64,000 nt of DNA, from contig JAHHHM010000002.1 of NCBI GenBank assembly GCA_019359355.1, positions 124,001 to 188,000 of the forward strand. Direction: 5' to 3'. Within the stretch, counting starts at the first letter, position 1. Every line of letters begins with the position of its first letter. The notes beneath the pieces were generated by a model, which was not told the DNA's origin, ran no database searches, and worked only from the letters and a program-made list of their open reading frames with translations. This document shows, one piece after another, positions 49,988 to 64,000 of this stretch. The position numbers and the translations under genes are program-made. Source of the DNA: Microcoleus vaginatus WJT46-NPBG5. Its GTDB lineage: Bacteria > Cyanobacteriota > Cyanobacteriia > Cyanobacteriales > Oscillatoriaceae.

Positions 49988-51649
49988 ATGGAAGCCGCGC
50001 CAGCCAAAGTTATTCAGTATTTCAACGGCGAAAAACAGAATCTCATTCCTCTTTTTCAGCGTCCTTATACCTGGACTGAAGACAATTGGAAGACACTCTG
50101 GGACGATCTGATGATGCAGTATGACATGGGCGACACTGGAACCCATTTTATGGGCGCGATTGTCTCAGTCCCAGCACGCAGCGTACCTGTAGGAGTCAGT
50201 AAGTATCTCATTATTGATGGACAGCAGCGCCTTACAACTGTGTCTTTACTTCTGTGCGTTCTGCGCGATTGTCTTGATTCCAATTCAGCCTCACGCATAC
50301 AGGAAGTTTACCTGACCAATCGCTTCCGCGAACCGGAGGACACCTTAAAGTTTGTGCCAACGCAAGCAGATCGAGATGTGTATCGCGCCATCGCCCTCGA
50401 CCGCCAGGTTCCAGAAAATAATAAAGATGTTCGGATGGCTGCTGCCTACCACTTTTTCAAGGACAAATTGCATAAAGGCACTGACGTTAACGACGATCCC
50501 GTAGATATTGGCAAAGTGTTAATCACCCTAGAGCAATGTCTCCAAGTTGTAATGATTAATCTTGGTGACGATGACGATCCGTATTTAATTTTTGAGAGCC
50601 TAAATTTTAAGGGTGAACCACTTACCCAAGCTGACTTAGTGAGAAATTATTTATTGATGCGCTTCCGCCACTCAATTTCTACTGATGGAGAGCAGGAACG
50701 GATTCACTCAAAATATTGGATTCCACTTGAGAAGATGCTTAAATCATATCTCACTGAATTCCTTCGCCACTACACAATGAAGGATGGGGATGATATTAAG
50801 CAGGGTGGTATTTATGCGGCTATAAAGGCGAAATTGAAAAACATGGAATCAACGGAAGCCGTCGAAGCAGAGGCTCAGTCTATGCTAAGGTTCGGCAAAT
50901 TTTACGCTAGATTTCTCTTCCCAGATCAAGAAGAAACAACGAGCATTCGTGAGTGCTTGGAGAATATCAACGAACTTCAAGTAACGACCTCCTATCCTCT
51001 ATTACTCCGTCTATTTGATGCTCGTCAGACTGGGCATCTCAGCGACGTTGAATTGGAGAAATGCCTTAGATTAATCGAGTCCTTTGTCGTTCGGCGGGCT
51101 GTTTGCAAAATCCCGACTAACTCGTTGAACAAACTGTTTATTCAATTGGCTAAAAACTTCCCGGAGGCGGATCATACCAAATGGTTGCACCGTTCTTTAT
51201 CATCATCGCGTCGTTTTCCCAAAGATGCTGAGTTTGACACAGCCTTTATGAACCAACCACAATATGGAAGTAGAACAACTCGTTTTATCCTTTGCCGTCT
51301 TGAAAAATCTTTTAACCACAAAGAAAGTGTGGATCTTTCAAAGGCAACAATAGAACACATTATGCCTCAAACACTGAATCAGGCATGGAAAGATGAGTTA
51401 GGTGCAGAGGCAGAGCAAGTTCATAATACTATGGTTGATACCTTTGGAAATTTGACTTTAACTGGCTACAATTCAGAGTTAAGTAATCTTCCATTTTCCG
51501 AGAAGAAAGCTAAACTCGAAAATACACATATCGAGCTAAATCGTTGGATTCTTCAGCAAGGGAATTGGCGGGCAGCAGAGATTGAGGAGCGAGCAAAAAG
51601 TTTGCTAGTTAGAGCTAATGATATTTGGCTGAGTCCCTTAGATATATGA
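49988..51649 (+). CDS. DUF262/DUF1524 (GmrSD-like) type IV restriction protein
   Basis: A 553-residue protein with the two domains of GmrSD-type modification-dependent restriction enzymes fused in one chain. The N-terminal DUF262 part has P-L-F-Q-R-P-Y-T-W (about residues 18-26) and I-I-D-G-Q-Q-R-L-T-T (about 76-85), the nucleotide-dependent NTPase site; the C-terminal DUF1524 part has I-E-H-I-M-P-Q (about 454-460) and F-G-N-L-T-L-T-G-Y-N-S, an HNH-type nuclease core. Family members cut phage DNA with modified bases. It sits alone between AT-rich gaps with no methylase, fitting a stand-alone defence gene acquired by transfer. The CCGG motif is much rarer here than in neighbouring genes. Confidence 0.88.
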   Translation: MEAAPAKVIQYFNGEKQNLIPLFQRPYTWTEDNWKTLWDDLMMQYDMGDTGTHFMGAIVSVPARSVPVGVSKYLIIDGQQRLTTVSLLLCVLRDCLDSNSASRIQEVYLTNRFREPEDTLKFVPTQADRDVYRAIALDRQVPENNKDVRMAAAYHFFKDKLHKGTDVNDDPVDIGKVLITLEQCLQVVMINLGDDDDPYLIFESLNFKGEPLTQADLVRNYLLMRFRHSISTDGEQERIHSKYWIPLEKMLKSYLTEFLRHYTMKDGDDIKQGGIYAAIKAKLKNMESTEAVEAEAQSMLRFGKFYARFLFPDQEETTSIRECLENINELQVTTSYPLLLRLFDARQTGHLSDVELEKCLRLIESFVVRRAVCKIPTNSLNKLFIQLAKNFPEADHTKWLHRSLSSSRRFPKDAEFDTAFMNQPQYGSRTTRFILCRLEKSFNHKESVDLSKATIEHIMPQTLNQAWKDELGAEAEQVHNTMVDTFGNLTLTGYNSELSNLPFSEKKAKLENTHIELNRWILQQGNWRAAEIEERAKSLLVRANDIWLSPLDI

Positions 51650-52141: not shown

Positions 52142-52396
52142 ATGGCATCACCCACACCCCTTCAGGGTCTTGAGCTGATTGACTGCGCGAAAGCAAATGC
52201 CGCTCAGGGAATCGAAACTGCCGCGCACCTATGTGGTTACGGTACGGATCTCAACACGTTTAAGCGAGAATTGAAGCAAGCTTGCCAGAATATCGGTGTC
52301 AAAATTGAAGAGTTAAGCGATTTAATCACCGATCAGCAGATCGTCAGAGAAGCCGGTGGCATTGAGGTTGCGCCCGATACGCCGGGAGAGCTTTAA
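52142..52396 (+). CDS. Small hypothetical protein
   Basis: An 84-residue, mostly helical protein beginning MASPTPLQGLELIDCAKANA, with a two-helix core (T-F-K-R-E-L-K-Q-A-C-Q-N-I-G-V-K-I-E-E-L) and an acidic C-terminal tail. Codon use and composition are normal. Similar small proteins seem common in cyanobacteria but no function is known. It converges with the next gene, 22 bases between the stops. Confidence 0.65.
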   Translation: MASPTPLQGLELIDCAKANAAQGIETAAHLCGYGTDLNTFKRELKQACQNIGVKIEELSDLITDQQIVREAGGIEVAPDTPGEL

Positions 52397-52418: not shown

Positions 52419-53990
52419 TTAAGTTTTCACTTGCATTTGTGCCAAAACATTGCGCGTCATTTGCTCGGCTGCGGGGTTGAGACGGGATGAACGCAAATCT
52501 GGTGCGTTAAAGTCGTCTAATCCCCAACTCCACTGCATAGAGCCGGTGGCAAAAACAAGGGCACCGCTATCAGTTGTATAAGCCGTCATATCAGCATAGC
52601 GGGTTCCACCTTCATGAGAATAGGGCGAGTGGCAAAGGCGAATTATATTTTTTGGGGCGTTGCCAAACATTCGATCCACTTCATAACCGAGAAGTCCAGG
52701 TAAGCGATCGCCCTTGGTTAAATTTGTGCCGGCAAGTAGCCACTCTGGGGCATTATCTATAACCAGATCAGCATTGACTTGAAAGGTTTCGTACATAACG
52801 CCAATAAAGGCATCTTCGGGGCGATTTACGGGTTGATATCGCCACAAAGTTGTTGCCCGGACATTTATTTCGGGGTCTCCATTTCGGATATAAGGATCTT
52901 TCGCAATCATTTCTTTATAGCCAACAATGGTGCGGTTTAAATCCCGCGTAATTCGACTCGGTTCAAATCGAATTTGCCAGAAACAAGTGTTGGATGAAAA
53001 AAATCCTAAACTAACACCTTTATCCCGTGCTGATTCTACATTTTGCCGCATTTGCCACGACCAATATTCATCATGCCCGACGGAAAGAAAAACTTTGTGT
53101 GCCGGCAGCAAACGAGAATTGAAGTGGGTATCAATATTGGTGGCATAGGTTACATCATAGCCTTCTCTCTCTAGCCAGCGCACCATGTTGTATTCCCAAC
53201 CGGCACTGGAGACTCTTCTGTAGGGTTGAATGTTGGTTAAAAATTCGCCTGCACCGACACCATAAGCAGCTTTAGGGTTAGGGCTAATAGCGTAAGGCCG
53301 GTTAAATGATACTTTATAAGCTTGTTTGCTTTTACTGTTCCATCGGTAAAGAGATTTGCCGCCCCAGTTATTGTAAGCTTGAAAGGTTGTCACGCTCGAT
53401 TGAAAGAGAATATCAGAGGCTCGTCTATCATCGCGCACAACAAAAATAATGTAACTTTGTTTGCCGCTTTGGCCGGCAGTCAGTTTTGCTAAATAAATCC
53501 CACTTGCCCAATCTGTCGGGTCATTTGGGTTATTAGGAATTTCCAGAATATAAGGCTCGTTCCAGTTGCATTCTATCAATCCAGAGGCTTTATCTTCAAT
53601 GGGTGGCGGCTGTCTAATTCCTGTTTTAGTAACTGGCTCACCCATGCGACGTGCGCCGGCACCTCCATACCAACCCATGCGGAAAATCTCAACTGTATAA
53701 TTGGGTTCTTTGGTATTAACAAAAAGCTTAATTTGTGAACCACGATTCACACTGGTGAGAGATGCGTAACCTTCAATTTCTCGCTTTCTCGCTGGGTTGG
53801 TTAGTTGCCAGTCCTTTGTGCCATCTTTTTGGTTTTCTGCTGCGGTGGGATTGGCTGCCGGTGTCGTGGTTCCTGTATCCTTGTCGGTGAAGTCTTGGCT
53901 TTGGTGCGAGTGTGCCGGCTGCCGGTTGAGAAACGGGGCAGCTAATCCAACTAGAAAGGCTTTTAAGAGTGTTCTGCGGCTAGATTTCAT
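52419..53990 (-). CDS. Tat-exported N,N-dimethylformamidase beta-subunit-like protein
   Basis: A 523-residue protein with a twin-arginine signal S-R-R-T-L-L-K-A-F followed by a hydrophobic core, so it should be exported folded. The body matches the large-subunit domain of N,N-dimethylformamidases: E-I-F-R-M-G-W-Y-G-G-A-G-A-R-R near residue 105, V-G-H-D-E-Y-W-S near 275, then F-F-S-S-N-T-C-F-W-Q. The Y-G-G-x-G-A-R-x-x motif and H-D-E-Y-W are typical of the family. The natural substrate is unknown; many cyanobacteria carry such a protein without the small subunit. ATG 53990 was chosen because it opens the Tat signal. Confidence 0.85.
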   Translation of the reverse strand: MKSSRRTLLKAFLVGLAAPFLNRQPAHSHQSQDFTDKDTGTTTPAANPTAAENQKDGTKDWQLTNPARKREIEGYASLTSVNRGSQIKLFVNTKEPNYTVEIFRMGWYGGAGARRMGEPVTKTGIRQPPPIEDKASGLIECNWNEPYILEIPNNPNDPTDWASGIYLAKLTAGQSGKQSYIIFVVRDDRRASDILFQSSVTTFQAYNNWGGKSLYRWNSKSKQAYKVSFNRPYAISPNPKAAYGVGAGEFLTNIQPYRRVSSAGWEYNMVRWLEREGYDVTYATNIDTHFNSRLLPAHKVFLSVGHDEYWSWQMRQNVESARDKGVSLGFFSSNTCFWQIRFEPSRITRDLNRTIVGYKEMIAKDPYIRNGDPEINVRATTLWRYQPVNRPEDAFIGVMYETFQVNADLVIDNAPEWLLAGTNLTKGDRLPGLLGYEVDRMFGNAPKNIIRLCHSPYSHEGGTRYADMTAYTTDSGALVFATGSMQWSWGLDDFNAPDLRSSRLNPAAEQMTRNVLAQMQVKT

Positions 53991-54100
53991 CTGAATATGA
54001 CCATGAATTTTTGTAGCAAGTAACTGGTTCAATATTTGTTTAATTTCAGTTACTGCCACTAATTCGATAATAGGAGATTTAGCATTAATCTAATCCCCAA

Positions 54101-56212
54101 TCAATCACACCGGCACAACTTAATTGTCATGTCACTGCTACAACTTACCAGAATTTGACCATCCGGACTGAAAGCTACAGCAGAAACTTTCTCCGAGTGT
54201 TCAGTTAGGGTTTGCAGCAATTCTCCTGTCTGCAAATTCCACAATTTAACTGTGTGATCGCTACTGCCACTTGCCAGAAGTTTCCCATTAGAACTGATGG
54301 CAATCGAATGCACCGGCAAGGAATGACCGGCAAGGGTACGCAATAACTCTCCTGTCCTCAAATTCCATAGCTTTACAGTGCCATTATGACTGCTACTCGC
54401 CAGCACTTTTCCATCAGAACTGATTGCCACTGAATAAACTTTTCCCGCAGGATCAGTTAGGGTATGAATAACTTTGCCGGTATCCAGACGCCGCAACTGA
54501 ATTAAACCGGCTTCTTCGATTTCCTCGATTTCATCTTCATCGATTCCCTTGAGACCGGCACTTGCTAAAATTTGCCCATCTGGACTAATCGCAACTGAAT
54601 CAATCACATCTGGCCCTAAATCGTGGATAAGTTCTCCAGTTATCAAATTCCATATCTGGATTGAACCTGTTTCATCCACGGGATCTTCACCGCCACTGAC
54701 GAGAATTTTACCATCAGGACTAATGGCAACCGATAAAGCCCAACATGAAGTTTCTAGGGTGCGAATTTGTTGGCCGGTTTTTAAATTCCATATCTCAATA
54801 TCGGCATTTGCAGAGGCAATAATCTCGGTATGTGGGCTAAAAGCTAGGGCGGAAACTGACATCGCTTCTGACTGCATAGCCAGAGTTTGAAGTTCTTCAC
54901 CCGTCTTTAAATTCCACAGTTTAATTTCTTTGTGACTTCCCGTTGCTAGCTGGTTTCCGCCGGCACTGATGGCAAGGCAGGTGACGGCGCTTGAATGTCC
55001 AGTAAGCGTCTTCACACATCGCCAAAGTTTCGATTTGGATTTTGATACCGGCTCTACAAGAACAGCTTGCACTGGCTCAACTTCTCGTCTTTTTTCAGCC
55101 GGTTTCTCCTCTGGACCCGGCTGAATAATTGGTTCTCTCTTTCTTTCTGGTTCACCAGACACTCTACCGCTGCTAAGCTGCTTTTCTTGGTTTAAACGCT
55201 CAGCTAAATTATCAACAGATTCCTGTAAATCTGCATACTGACTTCGTAGTTTTGTAATTTCTTCTCGAATTGGATTGAAATCGAGCCGGCTTTGCAGCGA
55301 TTTCGCAATTCCTTCTTGAATTAAATTATAATCAAACGTTTCACTTGAGGAGTTTCGGCTTGCCATTCGTGCCGGCAGCGCTGCGAGTTCTTCTGAAAGT
55401 TGCTCTAAAGCTGCTTCTATATTCCTCAAATCAATAGATTCTGAAGGAGCCGGCGTAGCAGCTAAATTCTGCTGCTCTTCATTGAGTCGCTGCTGCATCT
55501 GTGTCAGCGCTTCTCTTAACTCTGCAACCTGCCTTTCCGTTGCAACTTCAAACGTTCCTATTCGCCGGTTAAATTGCTCGCTATGGGCGTCTAAATAGCC
55601 CATGAAACCTGTCAGCGCCCCTTCTATCGGTGCTACTGTTTGCTTGAGAATAATTTGCTGCTGCTGTAGCGTTTCCATTTGGGTAAAAAGCCGCATGAGA
55701 TCTTGTCTTGGTGCTCCATTTTGAGCTTCATGCTGCTGGTGAGCAATTTGTTCAATGGCTCGAATTAACCCTATTCTTAATTCCTCAATTTGCTGCTCTA
55801 AATCAGAATCAGCCGCCACCGGCTCAAAATTTTGCTTCTCTGTATCGAGCCGGTGATTAATCTCTGCCAGTTGTGCTTGCAGGGTTGGCAAATCCGTAAT
55901 TTGTTCCGATAGCTGCCGCAAAACGGTTATATTTGCCCCGGCATCCTGAACCGGCATTGCTGAAAGTTGCCGGCGCACAGACTCCACCTCGCCTAAAAGT
56001 TGGCGCTGTACCTGGATAATCTCAGTTGTGCCACCGGCTGCCGGCAAATTCTCCAGCCGGCGACGATTCAGCAGATTCAGCAACAACGACAAGGAAATCG
56101 GTGTCGCTGCATAGACAACCTGCTGTGACGCCACAGCAACAACAGTCCCCACCGCCGATCCAGCGATTGAGAGATATTCAGCAATTTCTAGCCACTGACG
56201 GTGATTTCGCAT
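54101..56212 (-). CDS. Membrane-module, coiled-coil, WD40 protein
   Basis: A 703-residue protein in three parts. Residues 7-52 are a hydrophobic module (W-L-E-I-A-E-Y-L-S-I-A-G-S-A-V-G-T...S-L-L-L-N-L-L-N-R-R-R), probably two short membrane helices. Residues about 60-345 are predicted coiled coil. After a Pro/Glu-rich linker, residues about 395-703 form seven WD40 repeats, most with ...S-V-A-I-S-P-D-G-K-I-L-A-S and V-K-L-W-N-L. Seven repeats make one propeller. The N-terminal module is shared with the genes at 56562 and 58077, and the coiled coil with that at 61569. It is probably a membrane-tethered scaffold. Function unknown. Confidence 0.85.
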   Translation of the reverse strand: MRNHRQWLEIAEYLSIAGSAVGTVVAVASQQVVYAATPISLSLLLNLLNRRRLENLPAAGGTTEIIQVQRQLLGEVESVRRQLSAMPVQDAGANITVLRQLSEQITDLPTLQAQLAEINHRLDTEKQNFEPVAADSDLEQQIEELRIGLIRAIEQIAHQQHEAQNGAPRQDLMRLFTQMETLQQQQIILKQTVAPIEGALTGFMGYLDAHSEQFNRRIGTFEVATERQVAELREALTQMQQRLNEEQQNLAATPAPSESIDLRNIEAALEQLSEELAALPARMASRNSSSETFDYNLIQEGIAKSLQSRLDFNPIREEITKLRSQYADLQESVDNLAERLNQEKQLSSGRVSGEPERKREPIIQPGPEEKPAEKRREVEPVQAVLVEPVSKSKSKLWRCVKTLTGHSSAVTCLAISAGGNQLATGSHKEIKLWNLKTGEELQTLAMQSEAMSVSALAFSPHTEIIASANADIEIWNLKTGQQIRTLETSCWALSVAISPDGKILVSGGEDPVDETGSIQIWNLITGELIHDLGPDVIDSVAISPDGQILASAGLKGIDEDEIEEIEEAGLIQLRRLDTGKVIHTLTDPAGKVYSVAISSDGKVLASSSHNGTVKLWNLRTGELLRTLAGHSLPVHSIAISSNGKLLASGSSDHTVKLWNLQTGELLQTLTEHSEKVSAVAFSPDGQILVSCSSDMTIKLCRCD

Positions 56213-56561
56213 GAAAGACTTCTAATCGGCTCCATTCTTTATGATAATTGTCAGCCGGTTTGCCTCCATCTCACTACAGTAGAAATATAAAATTTCCCCT
56301 GTTGAGACTTTGCCGGCACCGCTTCTATCCAATCGCGGTAAATTTGCTAGGAATAAGCCAGGTTATTTCAACACTTAAATTGCATATTTTATTTTTTTAA
56401 GAAAAGTGCCTATCAATTATCTGGGTTTATTTTATTTTGTGGTGATTGTTTCTCAGGATTTCACCTTATTCACAACGACCTAAGCCAATTGTCTTGAGGG
56501 CTGATTTTCCCGAATCAAGCGAACTAAAATGCAATTTAAATGTTTTTTCTTAGCCAACTTT
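56213..56561. other. 349-base intergenic region
   Basis: An AT-rich spacer between two genes of the same family on the minus strand. No gene, strong terminator or recognised site is visible. It must contain the promoter of the WD40 gene. Confidence 0.45.
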
Positions 56562-57383
56562 TTAAGAACGTCCAGCCTTAGCCGATTGCTTCTGGAGCTG
56601 CTTCACCTCCGAAACCAAGCGCTGTAGGTAGGGTTTGATAATCTCTCGATTCTTGTGTTCCAGTTGCTCCATACGCCCCATCAGCTCATCAATTTGCGCC
56701 TGCCAAGCGGCGTGGATCTGGGCGAGGACTGCTTCAATATCATTAAAATCTGAGGGTTCATTTTCACGCTCTTGCATCTGGGTGGTGGTGTTTTTCAGAT
56801 CCGCAATCGCTTCTTGAATCAAGAAGAATTGGACATTCAGCCGTTCCCAGTCGTCTTCTTTAAATGCATGAGTCTCCAAACGTTCAGTGACACCTTGCAG
56901 TTGGGAGAGAGCTTGGTAAATGGGGTTGAGATCGGTAGATTCTGAATGAGAAACACTTTGGCGCACCTCAGCCAACTGCTGACGAACTTCCACCATCGCA
57001 GCCGCAGTGCTTTCCGCCAACTCATTTAACGACTGCCGCAGGTGAGCAATTTCATCTTGAATCACCGGCGAGTCAAATAACTCTGGAGGTTGGGAAAAGG
57101 GAAATAAATCATCAAAGCTGGAAGTCAGGGAATTGATCGCAGCCGGTTCAGGTAGACGCGGTTGTTGCGCCATTCGAGAGCGATTGAGCAGGTTGAGAGA
57201 CACCGCTAAAGTGAGCGGAGCCGCCGCGAATACAAACTGCTGGGAGACTGCTGCCGCCAGTGTTCCCACAGCCGAGCCGGCAACCGATGCGTACTCTGCC
57301 AGCTCTAACCAATGCCGCCGGCTTAGAGGGTTTGCCGCAGTAGGGTTTGTCACAGTTTGGAGTGAGGGTTCTATCTTCTGCAT
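56562..57383 (-). CDS. Membrane-module and coiled-coil protein, same family
   Basis: A 273-residue protein. After about 24 polar residues comes the shared module (W-L-E-L-A-E-Y-A-S-V-A-G-S-A-V-G-T...L-N-L-L-N-R-S-R), then coiled coil. The C-terminus has L-E-H-K-N-R-E-I-I-K-P-Y-L-Q-R-L-V and E-V-K-Q-L-Q-K-Q-S, nearly the same as the end part of the 58077 protein. There is no effector domain, so it looks like a shorter scaffold or a partner of the longer members. Function unknown. Confidence 0.82.
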   Translation of the reverse strand: MQKIEPSLQTVTNPTAANPLSRRHWLELAEYASVAGSAVGTLAAAVSQQFVFAAAPLTLAVSLNLLNRSRMAQQPRLPEPAAINSLTSSFDDLFPFSQPPELFDSPVIQDEIAHLRQSLNELAESTAAAMVEVRQQLAEVRQSVSHSESTDLNPIYQALSQLQGVTERLETHAFKEDDWERLNVQFFLIQEAIADLKNTTTQMQERENEPSDFNDIEAVLAQIHAAWQAQIDELMGRMEQLEHKNREIIKPYLQRLVSEVKQLQKQSAKAGRS

Positions 57384-57480
57384 AATTTCAGGTCGCTTAA
57401 AATGCCTTCCCGCAATTTTAGGCGCGATTGCACCGAGTTTTCAGCAAACATTCAGGTTTGAGAACGGATGTTGAAGTTTT

Positions 57481-58017
57481 TCAACGATCACTTTGCGGCT
57501 GAACTTCCCAACGCATAAGGCGTGGAATCTGCGATAGGTGTACGCCGTAGTTAAAAATCCAAAGGACGATCTCGACAGCCAATAACCTCTGTACCCAAAT
57601 TAACCCAGTATCAAAACTAACCAGTGTCCATCCACTATAGAGTTGCCAGAAGCGGTAAGGCAGGTAGAGACAAGGAACCAACACCCACACGCACGATTGA
57701 AATTGTTTCAAGGTTACACGTTCAGATAAAATTTGCAACCCTAGCATGACAAAGTAGGGAATCAAGGCTTGCAACACATTTTGATTGCCCCACCACACGC
57801 CCCACACAATCATTACCACCAAAGGAAGCGCCAAGCCTACCACCAACACAACAGCTAACCATGCAGAAAACCACGCCGGCAGCGGTTGCGGAAGGCTAAA
57901 AGGCTTTGATTCTCTCCACAAAAAACCAACAAACCCTAAAAAAGAGGTGGAAATAACCAGAAAGAGGAGATTTTCGAGCAGAATGTTGAGGTTAGTGGAA
58001 GATGTCATCTGCAACAT
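57481..58017 (-). CDS. Polytopic membrane protein
   Basis: A 178-residue protein with five predicted transmembrane helices (about residues 15-33, 46-70, 78-95, 105-125 and 138-158) and a short basic tail. It has no recognised domain. It lies on the minus strand between two members of the module/coiled-coil family, 59 and 97 bases from them, so it is probably part of the same transcription unit and may interact with their membrane modules; this is inference. Confidence 0.75.
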   Translation of the reverse strand: MLQMTSSTNLNILLENLLFLVISTSFLGFVGFLWRESKPFSLPQPLPAWFSAWLAVVLVVGLALPLVVMIVWGVWWGNQNVLQALIPYFVMLGLQILSERVTLKQFQSCVWVLVPCLYLPYRFWQLYSGWTLVSFDTGLIWVQRLLAVEIVLWIFNYGVHLSQIPRLMRWEVQPQSDR

Positions 58018-58076
58018 TTAGGCACAAAATAGACAATCAGCCGGTTTAAATTTCCTAGATGCTAGGCTGCATTGGC

Positions 58077-59003
58077 TTAGGTTTCGATACTTCTAACCCG
58101 CTGCGGCTCAATTCCGGGAACGCGGTGCCTTTCGGCGATATTTTCTGAGAGCCTAGATAGGGCGGAGTGCATCCCTTGTATCTGGTGCGGCTCGATTTGA
58201 GTTTCAAGTTCTTTAGCAAGATTCTCAATCTGCACGCTCAAGTCGGCGAGTGCAGCTTTCATCGGTTCGGTGCCCGATTGCTGTTGCAGTTGTTTCACCT
58301 CCATGACGAGGCGCTTGATATAGGGCTTGACAATCTGCTGGTTCTTTAGCTCTAGCTGTTCGACTCGCTGTTGCAATTGGGCGATCTGAGCCGGCACTTC
58401 ATCTGCTGAGGTGAGTGGAGATGTTGGGTTTGACAATTCTGCCTGCTGTACCGGCTGCCTTACCATCTGCCGCAAGGACTCAATTTCTTCAGCCAGACTT
58501 TGACGAACTTCCGCGATATTCACATTCGTGCTGTCGCGTAACCGAACAATTGCTCTACGAACAATTGCAAACTCTTCTTGAATCTGGGGATCTTGTAAAG
58601 ACGCAGATGAACGCTCAAGGCGATGTTGTAGCTGAACCCACAGCGTACTCAGCCTGAGCATTGAGGCTTCGAGATCCCGAAGGCGTTCGGATGCCGGTGT
58701 AATTTGTGTTGAGCTTCGCACCGATTGAATGTCGCCCCGCAGTTCGTGTTCTAACAGCGAAATGGCTGCGCTCGTGCTTTGCTCAATCGCCCTTGTCTGT
58801 GCCAGAAATCGCTGCCGGTTAACCATATTTAGCGAGAGGGCGAGCGTCAGCGGGGCTGCAGCATATACAACTTGTCCCGATACGGCAGCGACAATCGTTC
58901 CCACCCCGGAGGCAACCAGAGAGGCATATTCGGCCAGCTCTAGCCGCTGACCCTGGTTCTGAGAGTTCCTCACAGCTTTGATTGATGGTTCTGTATTCCG
59001 CAT
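58077..59003 (-). CDS. Membrane-module and coiled-coil protein, same family
   Basis: A 308-residue protein. The module (R-L-E-L-A-E-Y-A-S-L-V-A-S-G-V-G-T...L-N-M-V-N-R-Q-R) is at residues about 17-62, then coiled coil with V-E-Q-L-E-L-K-N-Q-Q-I-V-K-P-Y-I-K-R-L-V and E-V-K-Q-L-Q-Q-Q-S near residues 212-244, and a further helical tail. It is the first gene of the unit 59003 to 56562 that also includes the polytopic protein. I chose ATG 59003 rather than an upstream TTG because its start then parallels its paralogues. Confidence 0.82.
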   Translation of the reverse strand: MRNTEPSIKAVRNSQNQGQRLELAEYASLVASGVGTIVAAVSGQVVYAAAPLTLALSLNMVNRQRFLAQTRAIEQSTSAAISLLEHELRGDIQSVRSSTQITPASERLRDLEASMLRLSTLWVQLQHRLERSSASLQDPQIQEEFAIVRRAIVRLRDSTNVNIAEVRQSLAEEIESLRQMVRQPVQQAELSNPTSPLTSADEVPAQIAQLQQRVEQLELKNQQIVKPYIKRLVMEVKQLQQQSGTEPMKAALADLSVQIENLAKELETQIEPHQIQGMHSALSRLSENIAERHRVPGIEPQRVRSIET

Positions 59004-59021
59004 GGCTGTAGTGTAGTTCAA

Positions 59022-59510
59022 GATTGCACCTCAAAATGTCAGTTGTCTTTTATCCTTTATCCCTTCACACAGGCGGGACAGCGCTTGTCCCTTCATCCAC
59101 CGGCAGTCCTCTTACTTCTTTCCTCTCCCTACTGTCCCCCTTTCTTCCCTTGTCCCCTAACTTGTGCCAATTTCCAAAGTGTCCACTCTCACCGGCATCC
59201 ACTGGTGGCTACTAAAAATTTGTTACCACTGGCACACCCAGTTAAAAATTTTTGATGCGTAAGGCTTCGCGCCTCTTTTTCAAAAAGGGTTTGAACCTGA
59301 TTGTCATTCAGGTTTTTGAGTCGGCTGAAGGAGTGGCACAAAACTGGCATACCCGCCCCCTTAAATTTTTTACTTTATATGCAGAAATAGAGGGCGTGAA
59401 TCGCATTTTAGTAGCACCCGATGTTACTAAGTTCCTCAACCCTCTGACAGTAAATTTCTGTCCTAGTTACCGTGAATCGTTAAAACAAAAAATGGGAGAT
59501 AGCCTCAGCC
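59022..59510. other. 489-base divergent intergenic region
   Basis: A C/T-rich run with units such as TCTTTTATCC/TTTATCCC and CCCCTTTC-type repeats covers about 59043-59160; the right part is less repetitive and contains a weak 99-codon frame that I reject because the better-supported gene at 59511 overlaps it. Confidence 0.45.
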
Positions 59511-59717
59511 ATGTTACAAGAGAGCAACCGGCAACTGATGGCCATGATTAACGATTTAGATGCGTTGATCTCCGAGATAGATAACAACCCGCGCCTGTCC
59601 TCTTGGGTTGTTCGTTTGGTACTCAAGTCGATTAAGGATAAAGCGAAGAAAGCGGCCATCGAGACGACGAACGCAGAAGCATATCTAGAGGATCTGCTCG
59701 ACGCTTTTCCTAATTAA
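59511..59717 (+). CDS. Small hypothetical protein
   Basis: A 68-residue, mainly helical and charged protein starting MLQESNRQLMAMINDLDALI, with K-D-K-A-K-K-A-A-I-E in the centre and an acidic end. It has the look of a small coiled-coil or adaptor protein. No domain is recognised. A GGGAG site lies 12 bases before the ATG. It is on the plus strand, divergent from the module/coiled-coil cluster. Confidence 0.5.
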   Translation: MLQESNRQLMAMINDLDALISEIDNNPRLSSWVVRLVLKSIKDKAKKAAIETTNAEAYLEDLLDAFPN

Positions 59718-60041
59718 TTCACCGGCAACCACACTTTCAGCCCAGGCAAGACGGCTGCCGGCAACCTGCAAACGTGCCGGGGTCAGTGTTTAACCGGGTG
59801 CCGTACCTTTGTCCCTATCTGCGGGTTAAAATTGCAGTCTGGGCACTCAGTCTGCTAGATGTTAGTATAACTTCCGATTTGATACGATTTTGAATGATGT
59901 TTCTGTGATCTCCCGTTGACCGAAGCCGGCCAGATTGGGTAGTTTTTAGAGCCGGCAAGAAAATGCATAACATCTTTACCCGCCGGCAGCAATCGTTGAG
60001 ATGAGAGTCCCGGATTAGGAAATTAGAAAATTTTTGGGAAA
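59718..60041. other. 324-base intergenic region
   Basis: A spacer with unusually many CCGG motifs (at least six in the first 270 bases) and no gene. It separates the convergent small gene and the amidohydrolase. Confidence 0.45.
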
Positions 60042-60902
60042 TTAAGTGGTTCCGTCGGCAGTGGTGAGTGTGCTATAAAGTTCAGGCCGGCGATCACGGA
60101 ATAAGCCGAATGAGGCACGACTTAGGGCAATTTCGGCTAGGTTAAATGTGGCGTAAATAATGCCTTCGTCTGCCCGTGCGAGTTCTGCAACTTTGTCTCC
60201 CCGGTGGTTGGCAATAAAGGAATGACCATAAAAAGTTTGTCCGCCTTCGCACCCAACACGGTTTGCTGCAACAACCGGCACGGTATTGGCGACGGCATGG
60301 CCAATCATCACTCGCTGCCAAGGATCTTTGGTATCGAGGGTTAAATCTTGGGGTTCGGTGCCAATGGCTGTGGGATAAAGTAAAAGTTCAGCACCCATGA
60401 GTACCATTGAGCGAGCACATTCTGGAAACCACTGATCCCAGCAAATGCCCACACCAAGCCGGCCAAAGCGAGTTTTCCAGACTCGGAAGCCGGTATTTCC
60501 AGGACGGAAGTAAAATTTTTCTTCATAGCCTGGGCCGTCGGGAATGTGGCTTTTGCGGTAAACTCCTAAGACTGAGCCACCGGCATCGATGATCGCCACA
60601 CTGTTGTAGTAAGTAGGGCCGGTTTTTTCAAAAAATGACACCGGCACAACGACGTTTAATTCCTCAGCTAACTGCTGAAAGTGGGCAATCGTGGGATGTC
60701 CTTCTAGGGTATGGGCGTTGTTAAAGAATTGCTCTCGTTCCTCTCGAGGAAAGTAATGTCCCTCAAACAGTTCCGGGGGCAAAATTATTTGGGCACCTTT
60801 GCCGGCTGCCTCCCGTACGAGATGACTGATGCGGGTGATATTCGTGGATTTGTCTTCCGAGAAGGCTGTTTGGATGGCTGCAACGGTAGTGTTTTGAGTC
60901 AT
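60042..60902 (-). CDS. aguB: N-carbamoylputrescine amidase (nitrilase family)
   Basis: A 286-residue carbon-nitrogen hydrolase that turns N-carbamoylputrescine into putrescine in polyamine synthesis. The catalytic triad is Glu in L-P-P-E-L-F-E-G-H-Y-F (near residue 43), Lys in Y-R-K-S-H-I-P (near 118), and Cys in G-V-G-I-C-W-D-Q-W-F-P-E (near 155). The residues around D-G-P-G-Y-E-E-K-F-Y-F and E-P fit AguB rather than other nitrilases. The partner aguA (agmatine deiminase) is not in the window. Confidence 0.93.
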   Translation of the reverse strand: MTQNTTVAAIQTAFSEDKSTNITRISHLVREAAGKGAQIILPPELFEGHYFPREEREQFFNNAHTLEGHPTIAHFQQLAEELNVVVPVSFFEKTGPTYYNSVAIIDAGGSVLGVYRKSHIPDGPGYEEKFYFRPGNTGFRVWKTRFGRLGVGICWDQWFPECARSMVLMGAELLLYPTAIGTEPQDLTLDTKDPWQRVMIGHAVANTVPVVAANRVGCEGGQTFYGHSFIANHRGDKVAELARADEGIIYATFNLAEIALSRASFGLFRDRRPELYSTLTTADGTT

Positions 60903-61164
60903 GTCAGTTTTTTTAGCGTTGAAGGCTGATACATCTATTCAGGCTTGCCGGTGAGATGCCGGTTATAAAAAAGTTCAATTCCCCATGCTTCATGCCTTCG
61001 CAAAGGTGTGATACACATCACTGGGATAGAAAAACTCTGTCACGTGGTTATTTTGTTTCTATCACGCTCTCTCCCTTTAACTATCACAAACGATGAATGG
61101 GTTGCATCACGCAAGACTTCAGAAAAAGGCGAGATATTAGATACATCGAATTCAACCCATCATC

Positions 61165-61386
61165 ATGACTTCTCCCACACTCCTTCTTCCCTCCGCTATC
61201 TCCGATCTCTTTGCTCAAGTGACTATCTCTGGTTATATTACGCTTGCTGATCGTTATGGGTTGATGGCAGCGGTTTTGGATGAATCGCTGGATGAGGAGG
61301 AAAGATTTTCCATTGACCGGCTGCTGCATTCTGTAAGCCGGGGACGGGTGAAAATTGTGGATGAACTTTCTACTGTTATGGAATAA
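61165..61386 (+). CDS. Small hypothetical protein
   Basis: A 73-residue protein with V-T-I-S-G-Y-I-T-L-A-D-R-Y-G-L-M-A-A-V-L and E-E-R-F-S-I-D-R-L-L-H-S-V. The mix of strands and helices and conserved-looking G-Y-I-T-L-A-D-R-Y support a real gene of the kind found across filamentous cyanobacteria. Function unknown. It converges with the large TPR gene, separated by a terminator. Confidence 0.65.
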   Translation: MTSPTLLLPSAISDLFAQVTISGYITLADRYGLMAAVLDESLDEEERFSIDRLLHSVSRGRVKIVDELSTVME

Positions 61387-61505
61387 GTTGTTATTTTCTA
61401 GGGTTTTTGGTTGATGCTCTGTGCCTTCGGTGATGATGGGTACTCTTGAAGGTGGCAGGGCTATTTTGTTGGGCAATAAAGGATTAGATATTTTTAACCG
61501 CAAAT

Positions 61506-61541
61506 AAACGCAGATAAATCATTGTATTTATCTGCGTTTTT
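61506..61541. terminator. Bidirectional intrinsic terminator
   Basis: AAACGCAGATAAA (61506-61518) and TTTATCTGCGTTT (61527-61539) form a perfect 13-bp stem with an eight-base loop, followed by a T-run on the plus strand and preceded by A on the other. It lies between the convergent genes at 61165 and 61569, so it can end both transcripts. Confidence 0.8.
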
Positions 61542-61568
61542 GTTGGGATTTTGCAGTCTGTAGATTTG

Positions 61569-64000
61569 CTACGATTGCAGTTTTTTGAGGGTGTTTAGGG
61601 CTTGTTGGGCGCTGTTGGTATCTCCTTTATTGGAAAAGATGTGGGCGGCGTTTTGTAAATCTTCAATGGCTTTTTGCCGCTCTCCGATTTCTGCACGGGC
61701 TAATCCTCGGTTATGATAGGCACCGGCATGATCACGATGGTGCGTCAGGGTGTGGTTAAAGTCTGCAATTGCACCGGCATAATCTCCGCCGGCAGCGAAG
61801 GCAATCCCTCGGTTGAAGTATGCAACGGCATCATCCGGATTAATCTGTATTGCGTGATTGTAATCTTCAATGGCTGCCTGCCGGTTTCCTAGGTCATAGT
61901 ATGCTAATCCCCGGTTGTTGTGTGCGATTGCATCTTCGGGATTGAGTTGCAAGGCTTGGGTGTAATCTGCAACTGCGTTTTGATATTGCCCTAATAGCCG
62001 ATACGCTTCACCGCGCTGGAAGTAGGCGTCTGCATCGTCAGGCAGCAGGCGAATGGCTTCGGTGAAGTCTGTAATTGCGCCGGCGTATTCTGCTATATGA
62101 GATCGGGAAAACCCTCGGTTGAAGTAATAAGCGCCCTCGTTGGGATTCATCAGCAAGGCTTGGGTGTAATCCTCAATGGCAGCGGCGTGCTCTCCGAGAT
62201 TTGAGCGGGCAACGCCTCGGTTGTTATAGACGTTGGCATTGTTGGGATCGAGTTCCAATGCTTGCGTGTAATCTTCAATCGCAGATGGGGCATCGCCGCT
62301 ATCTAAGCGCTCAAAGCCGCGTTTGCGGTAGGAGTAGGCGTTATTGGGATTGAGAACGGGATCGTCAAAACGGTCGATTAAACCTTGGATAATCCGGGGA
62401 TCGGTGGTGAGGACGCCGACTTCTCGTTCCGGGAAACCGGCCCCGGCGCTGAGGAAGTTGTGAGTTGTGAGCATGGCACTGGTGCTATCACTCACCAAGT
62501 AGTTTTCGTGGGTTCCTAAAACTTTTAACCGCAGTTGGCTGGGATATTTGCTCTGCAACTGTTCCAAGTCGTTGAGCGCGTCATACAAAGTATCGCTCTC
62601 CTCGTTGCTTTGCCACTGCCGGCCTGTTTTTCGCGGAAACTCACCGCTCTCAATATCTTTGAGGTTGCCCCAGCCAATATCGAGCCGGCCATTTTGCTCT
62701 AGAAATACCTCAAATTTCCTCAGCAAGTCGCTATCGAGGCTGGATCGGCTTACCCAGGGGCAAACAACAATCAGTCGCTCTTGGGTGGTTTCTAGGGCTT
62801 CTTCCAACACGGAGCGAATCCCCGGACGGTCAAATACTAACTTGAATTCCCAAGTTTGTAGGGCTTTGAGCAGTTGACTAATCTCACCCAACTGATTTTC
62901 TACGGCTTGAGTCACCAACTGTTGAATATTCGCCAGTTCGGTGGTTGCGCCGGCTAACCCGCTCTCAACATTTGGATTGAATCCAGACGTGACGGGCAAT
63001 AGTGCTGACACATTGAGTGAGGGAAAATCTGAGGCAGGGCGATTAGATACATTTTGCAAATCTGTTTGCAGTCGGGTGATTGCTTCTTCTAAAGCGGCGA
63101 TGTGGCCGGTTTCTAAGCGATCTAGGGCGGCGTGCAATCCGGAAATATCTCCTTGCAGGGAATCAACATCAACCGATTGAATCTCGGCAATGCGACTTTC
63201 CATCTGAGACTTCGCTTCCGCAACTGCTTCGGCAATCTTACTCAAGACGCTTTCCACCTCAGCCAGATCGGCAGATTCAGTCAATGCCGGCTCAGAGGAG
63301 TAATTTTGCGTTTCTACGTTGATGCGCCGATAAAGTTGGGTGAGGGATTCGCGCAACTCTTCTATTTGCTGCCTTTCGGGACGCTGGTTAAACTGCTCAC
63401 TCAGGGTGTTGAGCGGTTCTTGCAGTTCCGCAGCGATGCGCTCTTGAAGTTCTACCGGCAGGGTTTCTACTTGTTGTTGCAAGGATTGAACGTCTTCGCG
63501 CAATTGCTGCCAATCTGTCGTTGCACCGGCTGTGTGTTGGCGCAGATCACTGACTAACTTTTGGATGTCTCCCAGATGTTGCTGAACTTCGGCTTTTGTT
63601 GCCAAATGCTCTAGAGAGCTTTCTAGCTGCCCCAGAGCGGTTCTCAACTCCCCCAATTGCTGCTCTACCTCCACAGAGGCGGGTGCAGATTGTTGTTGGG
63701 CGAAGGCTGTTTGCAGGTAAGCGATTCTTTCCCAAGCCTCGGTGATGGCTCTTTCTAATTCCTCTATCTTGGCGCTAGATGGGCTGTTGTCTAGGCGTGT
63801 GGTAACGCCGGCAACCGATTCTAGCAAGTCCGCATACTGTTCTCTCAACTGCAAAAGGTTGCCCGGTACGGGTTCGAGATCCGCGAAATTGTGGATTTCT
63901 GCTTCTAGCTGGGCAAGCCGGCTTTCCAACCGGGTTTTTGCCTCTGCGACAGATTCGGCGATTTTATTTAAAACTTCTTCAACGCCGGTGAAATCGACGG
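61569..64000 (-). CDS. Coiled-coil, PLD-like, TPR protein (N-terminus outside the window)
   Basis: The frame is still open at the right edge; the visible part is about 810 residues. The N-terminal half is coiled coil with an internal repeat (E-V-L-N-K-I-A-E-S-V-A-E-A-K and V-L-S-K-I-A-E-A-V-A-E-A-K, about 220 residues apart). A phospholipase-D-like domain follows (about 385-520 of the visible part) with I-V-V-C-P-W-V-S-R-S and T-H-E-N-Y-L-V-S-D, where the HxK motif has Asn for Lys. At least seven TPR units (R-G-x-A-x-x-x-L-G...A-I-x-D-Y-x-x-A-L-x-L-N-P) end the protein. The coiled-coil blocks match those of the WD40 protein at 54101, so it probably belongs to the same family and should start with the same membrane module. 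Confidence 0.85.
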   Translation of the reverse strand, partial: VDFTGVEEVLNKIAESVAEAKTRLESRLAQLEAEIHNFADLEPVPGNLLQLREQYADLLESVAGVTTRLDNSPSSAKIEELERAITEAWERIAYLQTAFAQQQSAPASVEVEQQLGELRTALGQLESSLEHLATKAEVQQHLGDIQKLVSDLRQHTAGATTDWQQLREDVQSLQQQVETLPVELQERIAAELQEPLNTLSEQFNQRPERQQIEELRESLTQLYRRINVETQNYSSEPALTESADLAEVESVLSKIAEAVAEAKSQMESRIAEIQSVDVDSLQGDISGLHAALDRLETGHIAALEEAITRLQTDLQNVSNRPASDFPSLNVSALLPVTSGFNPNVESGLAGATTELANIQQLVTQAVENQLGEISQLLKALQTWEFKLVFDRPGIRSVLEEALETTQERLIVVCPWVSRSSLDSDLLRKFEVFLEQNGRLDIGWGNLKDIESGEFPRKTGRQWQSNEESDTLYDALNDLEQLQSKYPSQLRLKVLGTHENYLVSDSTSAMLTTHNFLSAGAGFPEREVGVLTTDPRIIQGLIDRFDDPVLNPNNAYSYRKRGFERLDSGDAPSAIEDYTQALELDPNNANVYNNRGVARSNLGEHAAAIEDYTQALLMNPNEGAYYFNRGFSRSHIAEYAGAITDFTEAIRLLPDDADAYFQRGEAYRLLGQYQNAVADYTQALQLNPEDAIAHNNRGLAYYDLGNRQAAIEDYNHAIQINPDDAVAYFNRGIAFAAGGDYAGAIADFNHTLTHHRDHAGAYHNRGLARAEIGERQKAIEDLQNAAHIFSNKGDTNSAQQALNTLKKLQS

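Follow-up and report, generated by a model that had tools for sequence, protein, structure and literature searches.

A family of putative membrane-anchored scaffold proteins in cyanobacteria, with a constant N-terminal module, varied C-terminal domains and a conserved gene linkage to mgtE

The stretch of DNA analysed here (64,000 nucleotides, hereafter the window) corresponds to bases 124001-188000 of contig C24 in the 6.46-Mb genome of Microcoleus vaginatus WJT46-NPBG5. At its far end lies a cluster of genes on the reverse strand, the products of which carry the same 46-residue module near the N-terminus, followed by coiled coil and by ends of different types. Six genes, g1 to g6, make up the cluster, which runs past the end of the window, and a seventh (g7, 201 residues) is sited on contig C34. 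The family they represent is new relative to the libraries and papers searched. We read it, with a probability of roughly 60%, as a family of cyanobacterial membrane-anchored scaffold or adaptor proteins, of which the branch with the best-conserved genomic context probably has MgtE as a partner.

Within the window, g1 (54101..56212, reverse strand) encodes a protein of 703 residues, consisting of the module (residues 8-53; 56054..56191), located by gap-free alignment and hydropathy, a coiled coil and a WD40 region (residues 403-703; 54104..55006). The seven-bladed WD40 end predicted in a first-pass annotation made from the sequence alone was confirmed as WD40 by Pfam (2.3e-56) and as seven repeats by a local repeat model. 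The next gene, g2 (56562..57383, reverse strand; 273 residues), combines the module (residues 26-71; 57171..57308) and coil with a KPYLQRLVSEVKQLQ tail, for which Pfam gave nothing above its cut-off. The conserved KPYLQRLVSEVKQLQ stretch (56592..56636) was delimited in an alignment of 14 relatives, in which K250, P251, L253, R255, L256, V260, K261 and L263 are invariant. In g3 (58077..59021, reverse strand; 314 residues), the module (residues 27-72; 58806..58943) and coil precede KPYIKRLVMEVKQLQ and more predicted coil, and g2 and g3 indeed have the previously described motif KPY..RLV..VKQLQ in common. At the window edge, the C-terminal part of g4 (61569..64000, reverse strand) contains coils, a PLD-like domain and TPRs.

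When the sequence was read past base 64000, this fragment proved to be part of a complete protein of 1586 residues, the gene of which starts at L009:15330, 2,329 bases beyond the window end and on the same strand. Its N-terminus is the same module (L009:15178-15315, gap-free alignment), and not the unrelated sequence that, according to the first-pass annotation, would have spoken against a common family. The module is followed by coils, including 71-residue repeats (L009:13560-14415), by the PLD-like domain (approximately residues 1170-1325; 62355..62822) and by a TPR array (approximately residues 1330-1560; 61650..62342; Pfam TPR_1 9.9e-46). The PLD-like domain is absent from the Pfam listing for g4 and was recognised by BLASTP to g5 (4e-41). 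The reported sharing of coil blocks with the WD40 protein was borne out by BLASTP between g1 and g4, with E-values of 2e-20 over module and coil together and 8e-14 over the coil block containing ELREALTQ/ELRESLTQ. Upstream of g4 are g5 (395 residues; module, coil and PLD-like domain) and g6 (566 residues; module, coil and WD40, Pfam 1.9e-80). Like g1, g6 has seven WD40 repeats in the local model, consistent with the count of about seven needed to close a propeller.

The gene set g3-g2-g1 recurs in family f1 at three loci (L071, L079 and L082), and the set g6-g5-g4 at L081 and L070, the latter with g5 shortened to 177 residues, and partly at L074 and L078. Thus, the tandem arrangement proposed earlier exists in the genus and family of M. 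vaginatus, and the cluster is larger than was visible in the window. Elsewhere, a module gene usually stands alone in the fetched stretches, whereas L087 and L086 have groups of two or three. A promoter and terminator scan did not beat shuffles. The long coil of g4 enlarges by 71-residue units, numbering 4.1 in M. vaginatus against 5.7 in another genome of its genus; the copy number of the underlying 213-base array (L009:13560-14415 versus L068:12814-14030) thus varies within the genus, like a ruler of variable length.

The module itself is well defined. In g1 to g3, 23 of its 46 positions are identical without a gap, in exactly the pattern first described, whereas shuffling of the three modules with their composition kept (20,000 trials) gave a mean of 0.74 identical columns and a maximum of 7. 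Thirteen positions are identical across all seven copies in the genome, and a profile made from these copies recovers g1 to g7 at E <= 3.2e-28, the next best match in the genome being at 0.48. E7 and G17 do not vary in any of 51 diverse copies, and at least 90% of these conserve P33, N41, N44 and R45. With a threshold as loose as E 0.1, no Pfam or NCBIfam model matched more than two of the 51, and no match was convincing; a search of the PDB with the module revealed no relative (best E 0.87).

The module was found in 27 of 30 genomes picked by kinship, the M. vaginatus genome included (E <= 0.01), and in 75 of 386 genomes sampled evenly across the phylum (E <= 1e-4), all 75 belonging to the class of the window's genome. 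Among the matches listed, the copy number reached 8 per genome in the sample. In a search of named organisms with g1, the best 80 of 101 relatives matched nearly all in the WD40 part, and the module was absent from the fetched stretches of these 80. In the whole genomes behind 40 of these loci, the module was present in 22, all of them among the 30 labelled cyanobacterial, and in none of the 10 non-cyanobacterial ones (Anaerolineae, Streptomyces, Planctomycetaceae and others), each of which has a WD40 relative of g1. Carriers include Planktothrix paucivesiculata PCC 9631, Planktothrix sp. PCC 11201, Phormidesmis priestleyi BC1401, Nodosilinea sp. LEGE 07298, Fischerella muscicola PCC 73103 and Calothrix sp. 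NIES-4105. Phage and plasmid searches with g2 as the only query and a viral contig search with only the g7 module gave no match.

What follows the module varies widely. A census was made of 147 module open reading frames (ORFs), one per distinct first 41 module residues, in which near-identical orthologues count separately, some frames are truncated at locus ends and classes were assigned by local models. It yielded 43 WD40 tails, 14 with PLD-like domain and TPR, 12 with PLD-like domain, 14 with TPR and 64 with none of these, the last group dividing into 25 of the KPY type, 5 of the RYHW type, 5 with tails of other Pfam families, 28 others and 1 left unsorted. In total, 33 module proteins were scanned with Pfam; for those with WD40, the statements made here hold among the matches listed, up to 25 families each. 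The scan recognised pentapeptide repeats in three loci (L033, L043 and L272) and GUN4, HTH_25 and FtsZ in one each (L066, L239 and L028), and some module proteins have nothing but coil after the module. The GUN4 domain, which binds tetrapyrroles, follows a module and a strongly repeated coil (L066:7565-9343, genome G011). The FtsZ fusion is a single frame of 568 residues with module, coil and FtsZ (L028:40-1743, also L054:6003-7706; genome G010). Its genome has an ordinary FtsZ of 429 residues elsewhere, which is 54% identical to the fusion over residues 247-557. The usual FtsZ motif is GGGTGTG, and the fused copy reads GKGTGTG. Together, these tails strongly support the earlier proposal of one shared anchor with many outputs, although, by analogy, docking or sensor domains would be a better name for the tails than outputs, because the same set is found mostly C-terminal to cyanobacterial kinases. 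On a tree of the module, 44 changes of tail label are needed, against a possible minimum of 10 and an average of 90 after shuffling. Tail labels thus appear to cluster, yet they do not form one clade each, and the starred branches force at least three changes each for WD40 and PLD. Since it is built on only 51 columns, the tree is weak and is not relied on here.

The PLD-like domain has largely lost its active-site motif. In the 26 rows of the PLD class, the His, Lys and Asp of HxKxxxxD are present in 11, 1 and 26 cases, respectively (12, 1 and 22 in an earlier set of 22 rows). Asn commonly stands in place of the catalytic Lys, and Glu follows the His position in 24 of the 26; g4 reads HENYLVSD and g5 HENFLVCD. 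The fold of a PLD phosphodiesterase or nuclease effector is present, but its catalytic motif is mostly lost. Pfam PLDc_2 scores 26.8 bits on g5, slightly below the cut-off of 27, and Foldseek with the g5 model retrieved TrmBL2, NucT, Nuc and FAM83 at E-values of 1e-9 to 2e-7, with archaeal TrmBL2 first by E-value and with identities of 9-18% to FAM83 and TrmB/TrmBL2. We conclude from the motif counts that the domain is probably a PLD fold serving mainly for binding, because the HKD motif is mostly lost; as g4 and g5 keep the His but not the Lys, some residual activity may be possible. Thus, the PLD-like plus TPR end given to the fourth gene earlier is present, with the correction that its PLD-like active-site motif is degenerate.

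Among the neighbouring genes, the tightest same-strand linkage is that of the gene for MgtE. In a neighbour clustering of 60 long loci, it was found beside WD40-type members at 11 loci in eight genera and seven families, and the one linked gene scanned with Pfam gave MgtE_N, CBS and MgtE. Subsequently, MgtE was sought in 75 module-bearing genomes, which are 75 of the 90 with module matches among the matches listed (omitted are G019, G020, G024, G028, G047, G055, G072, G105, G109, G172, G174, G197, G257, G263 and G296). The input consisted of 196 module rows and 99 MgtE rows from 69 genomes, including four MgtE frames shorter than 175 residues that are probably fragments. In 30 of the 75 genomes, from 14 families and including that of M. 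vaginatus, mgtE is located closely upstream of a module gene on the same strand. The distance between the MgtE domain and the module gene is 47-458 bases in 29 pairs and 1,152 bases in one, where an intervening gene is possible. In 13 more pairs within 6 kb, the module gene is always downstream and on the same strand. Given ~1.4 MgtE genes per genome, a same-strand target of 1.5 kb and genomes of 6 Mb, well under one pair would be expected by chance in 196 module rows. As lineages are not independent, the 14 families weigh more than the 30 genomes. In the M. vaginatus genome, the MgtE domain is encoded at C24:194091-194459, ~6 kb beyond the window end, and the gene order is mgtE, g6, g5, g4. 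A second, broken MgtE-like stretch is present in this genome at C13:33010-33363 (a 152-residue frame with one stop). Rfam gave no match in L009, L070, L081 and L087, hence no Rfam-known Mg2+ riboswitch at these loci.

In an earlier row count, MgtE was found at most 500 bp upstream on the same strand in 18 of 43 WD40-class rows and in none of the 103 non-WD40 rows (out of 104 in all) with at least 400 bp of upstream sequence. This contrast between the classes has been superseded, as the short MgtE-linked proteins of family f2 were mostly outside that row set. At six f2 loci, the MgtE-linked protein has the module without WD40; therefore, the link follows the module. On the module tree, MgtE-linked rows need 10 changes versus 18.2 after shuffling, i.e., they are clustered without being a single clade. 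Four of the six MgtE-linked f2 proteins end in a conserved, helix-turn-helix-looking tail that contains IDELAQRFQRQPSAIRSRLQKLGL (L275:3237-4160, with relatives in L276, L279 and L280) and for which Pfam gave no name in the scanned protein from L275. With a conserved context and with the module at the start of the fourth protein, the case that had been named as a possible undoing of the idea did not hold.

How the module might anchor these proteins can be read from its composition. It consists of two stretches of ~16 small and aliphatic residues each, flanking a polar QQ turn, and is the most hydrophobic stretch anywhere in g1 to g7. Over the 147 ORFs, the mean net charge is +1.4 over the 10 residues preceding the module, near 0 at the turn and +2.0 past the module, where it should be considered that frames were read from stop to stop with start codons unassigned and that some of the preceding residues are possibly untranslated. 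The positive flanks, which fit the positive-inside rule, together with the nearly uncharged turn, suggest a hairpin whose two ends lie on the cytoplasmic side. Residues E7 and R45 are equidistant from Q26, a symmetry that would fit a salt bridge closing such a hairpin.

Taken together, we propose that the 46-residue module folds into a short hairpin of helices that most likely enters or crosses the membrane and turns back, so that its two ends are cytoplasmic, and that probably packs against the hairpins of other family members. The subsequent coiled coil would act as a spacer and oligomeriser, and the C-terminal docking domain, whether WD40, TPR, degenerate PLD-like, pentapeptide, GUN4, FtsZ-like or HTH, would bind a partner and thereby keep it in place at a particular point of the membrane. 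For one branch, which we view as old and whose context is the best conserved, this partner is probably the Mg2+ channel MgtE. The two genes may be co-transcribed, and a physical contact of their products could affect Mg2+ flux. A more far-reaching version, which is doubtful at present, holds that the family is a dedicated membrane-scaffold toolkit, with an accessory subunit of MgtE as founding member and with co-assembling paralogues that couple Mg2+ supply to photosynthetic or cell-surface machinery. The hairpin and coils of the paralogues would then bring WD40, TPR and pseudo-PLD platforms to the same membrane patches, joined in single lineages by GUN4 and FtsZ platforms.

Several observations weigh against an MgtE-associated membrane scaffold. 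Linkage does not equal contact; 45 of the 75 genomes lack an MgtE-module pair and six lack any MgtE match, and no such pair was found for most tail classes. Moreover, the 75 genomes were selected for having the module and include close relatives. By number of genera, two neighbour clusters outrank that of MgtE, i.e., response-regulator or kinase-like proteins (13) and pentapeptide proteins (9), although the distances in these clusters vary far more than in the MgtE cluster, and they are provisionally taken as promiscuous domain families. The best 17-residue hydropathy means of the modules, 1.7-2.6, are only moderate, so that the two helices might instead be peripheral or soluble. The hairpin is of low confidence in both AlphaFold models, with a predicted local distance difference test (pLDDT) score of ~50 in g5, where helices are predicted at 2-28 and 32-98, and of ~31-36 in the poorer model of g2. 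Finally, the TM-scores for the PLD-like domain are best for the catalytic NucT and Nuc (0.69-0.71 of the target) and lower for FAM83 (0.58-0.66) and TrmBL2 (~0.4, with a root-mean-square deviation of 12.6-21).

The moderate hydropathy, the central polar QQ and the low-confidence models would also suit a module that is a soluble oligomerisation helix pair and no membrane anchor at all. We consider this unlikely in view of the two small/aliphatic stretches with their positively charged flanks, equalled in hydrophobicity by nothing else in g1 to g7. An organiser of cell shape or division, in which the proteins tether cytoskeletal filaments to the membrane, would explain the coil-rich architecture, the existence of an FtsZ paralogue with module and coil, and the one member with HTH_25, the domain type of RodZ. 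It is rendered improbable, however, by the single occurrence of both the FtsZ and the HTH_25 fusion, by the absence of any division gene recognised by eye among the 22 largest neighbour clusters and by the tight linkage being with mgtE. The general organising role suggested by the first-pass annotation is nevertheless retained in the scaffold reading.

Even less probable are the two other roles contemplated for the cluster. In a counter-invader conflict system, an unchanging anchor would carry effectors that differ from protein to protein, for instance a PLD nuclease, in a manner comparable to Mokosh or to the TRADD-N and EAD systems of cyanobacteria. PADLOC matches the PLD-like region of g5 to MkoB (3.7e-19) and MkoC (6.4e-11) and the coils of g4 to several coil-rich models (LmuB 9e-24, JetC), and a GmrSD-type restriction gene (window 49988-51649) is found ~2.5 kb from the cluster. 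Also, bacterial TRADD-N proteins are built in a similar way, from one constant piece and tails that vary among TPR, pentapeptide, GUN4 and HTH (PMC8195603). However, the PADLOC matches of g1, g3, g4 and g6 probably reflect coils or repeats, the families listed by Pfam for the 33 scanned proteins include no TIR, caspase, REase or STAND domain, and the tightest same-strand neighbour is mgtE. With these matches weighed, the conflict role was rejected as the main explanation on the predominant loss of the active-site motif, with the catalytic Lys in 1 and the His in 11 of 26 domains, and on the empty searches of phages and plasmids with g2 and of viral contigs with the g7 module. Comparably small odds apply to an input stage of signalling linked to chemoreceptors or kinases, with the tails as sensors. 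In three genera of f1, the short g7 type has an MCP receptor gene as its neighbour, the largest neighbour cluster consists, by eye, of response regulators and kinase-like proteins, and cyanobacterial Ser/Thr kinases bear the same tails (PMC2176072). Yet the same Pfam scan listed no kinase, GGDEF, PAS or receiver domain, the MCP pairing comes from one family only, and the regulator cluster is mixed in distance and strand.

Other genes around the module genes deserve mention. Between g2 and g3, a gene on the reverse strand (57481..58017) encodes a 178-residue hydrophobic protein with Pfam DUF7733. It is probably a passenger, because the g3-g2 gap in L071 and L082 measures 66 bases, which is too short for a DUF7733 gene. 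Downstream of g1, a DMFA2_C gene (window 52419-54059; N,N-dimethylformamidase beta-like, E 1e-120) has relatives within 5 kb of module genes in five genera and two families. An ORF of 84 residues (window 52142-52396) has no Pfam match at E 1e-5 and has relatives near module genes in L053 and L074. On its own contig, g7 (L010:7619-8224) adjoins a chemoreceptor gene with CHASE3 and MCPsignal domains in Pfam (L010:8649-10190), and a gene related to the latter adjoins the g7 type in L076 and L080. The g7 protein and six aligned relatives have the conserved end PQ(D/Q/E)(V/I)(L/V)(R/K)(R/K)Y(H/Q)W.

The family matters because it is found in many cyanobacteria without an entry in Pfam or NCBIfam as searched, its members probably being named after their WD40 or TPR tails in annotation. 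The mgtE link gives a concrete hint of function for a group of bacterial WD40 proteins, and if MgtE does have a membrane-anchored WD40 partner, Mg2+ in photosynthetic cells would be under an additional, new level of control. From the FtsZ and GUN4 fusions, it seems that the anchor was reused to put differing machines on membranes. A search of the open-access literature found nothing on the module or on an MgtE-WD40 link. In a neighbourhood survey of WD40 genes in seven cyanobacterial species, no gene had neighbours broadly conserved across all seven, and some were conserved within a family (PMC5587647). Since no such broad conservation was seen there, the MgtE link looks new within the literature searched.

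Among known systems, the nearest in design are the TRADD-N and EAD/EACC proteins, found in cyanobacteria among others, which likewise join a constant piece to pentapeptide, TPR, GUN4 and HTH tails; in these, the piece that stays constant is a domain of RRM fold, which usually has variable effectors on its N-terminal side and the tails after it (PMC8195603 and PMC7159879). The family described here appears to have instead an N-terminal hydrophobic hairpin and then coil, predicted as helical in both AlphaFold models, albeit with low confidence. No effector enzyme was seen in the scanned members and no N-terminal effector or EAD domain in g1 to g7, the module of which begins at residues 6-28 and leaves no space for one; in a few relatives, ~130 residues at most precede the module in stop-to-stop frames with unassigned start codons. 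Cyanobacterial Ser/Thr kinases bear the same WD40, TPR, pentapeptide and GUN4 domains, mostly at the C-terminus (PMC2176072), whereas the module proteins have an anchor and coil and no kinase domain. By this analogy, the tails of kinases and TRADD-N proteins are binding and superstructure domains, and here the hairpin would replace the enzyme or adaptor. Types I and II of the Mokosh system include a PLD-like domain (PMC10952713), and MkoB and MkoC resemble the module family in sequence across this region. The module genes differ from Mokosh in that the HKD motif is mostly lost and that no helicase or kinase is encoded alongside. A helicase or kinase is part of the make-up of Mokosh. FAM83 (DUF1669), a scaffold, and TrmB/TrmBL2 are non-catalytic PLD folds, to which the domain described here is similar in fold, according to Foldseek, and in its degenerate catalytic motif, but here it is placed on an anchor and coil, often with TPRs. 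The coiled-coil-rich filament proteins of cyanobacteria, which reportedly have scaffolding roles, and ZipN, said to be a membrane tether for FtsZ, can be likened to the family by description only, as coil-rich scaffolds and a membrane tether, respectively. Thus, scaffolds that pair an unvarying anchor with differing docking domains are of a known kind, and to these is added an anchor family without a library entry.

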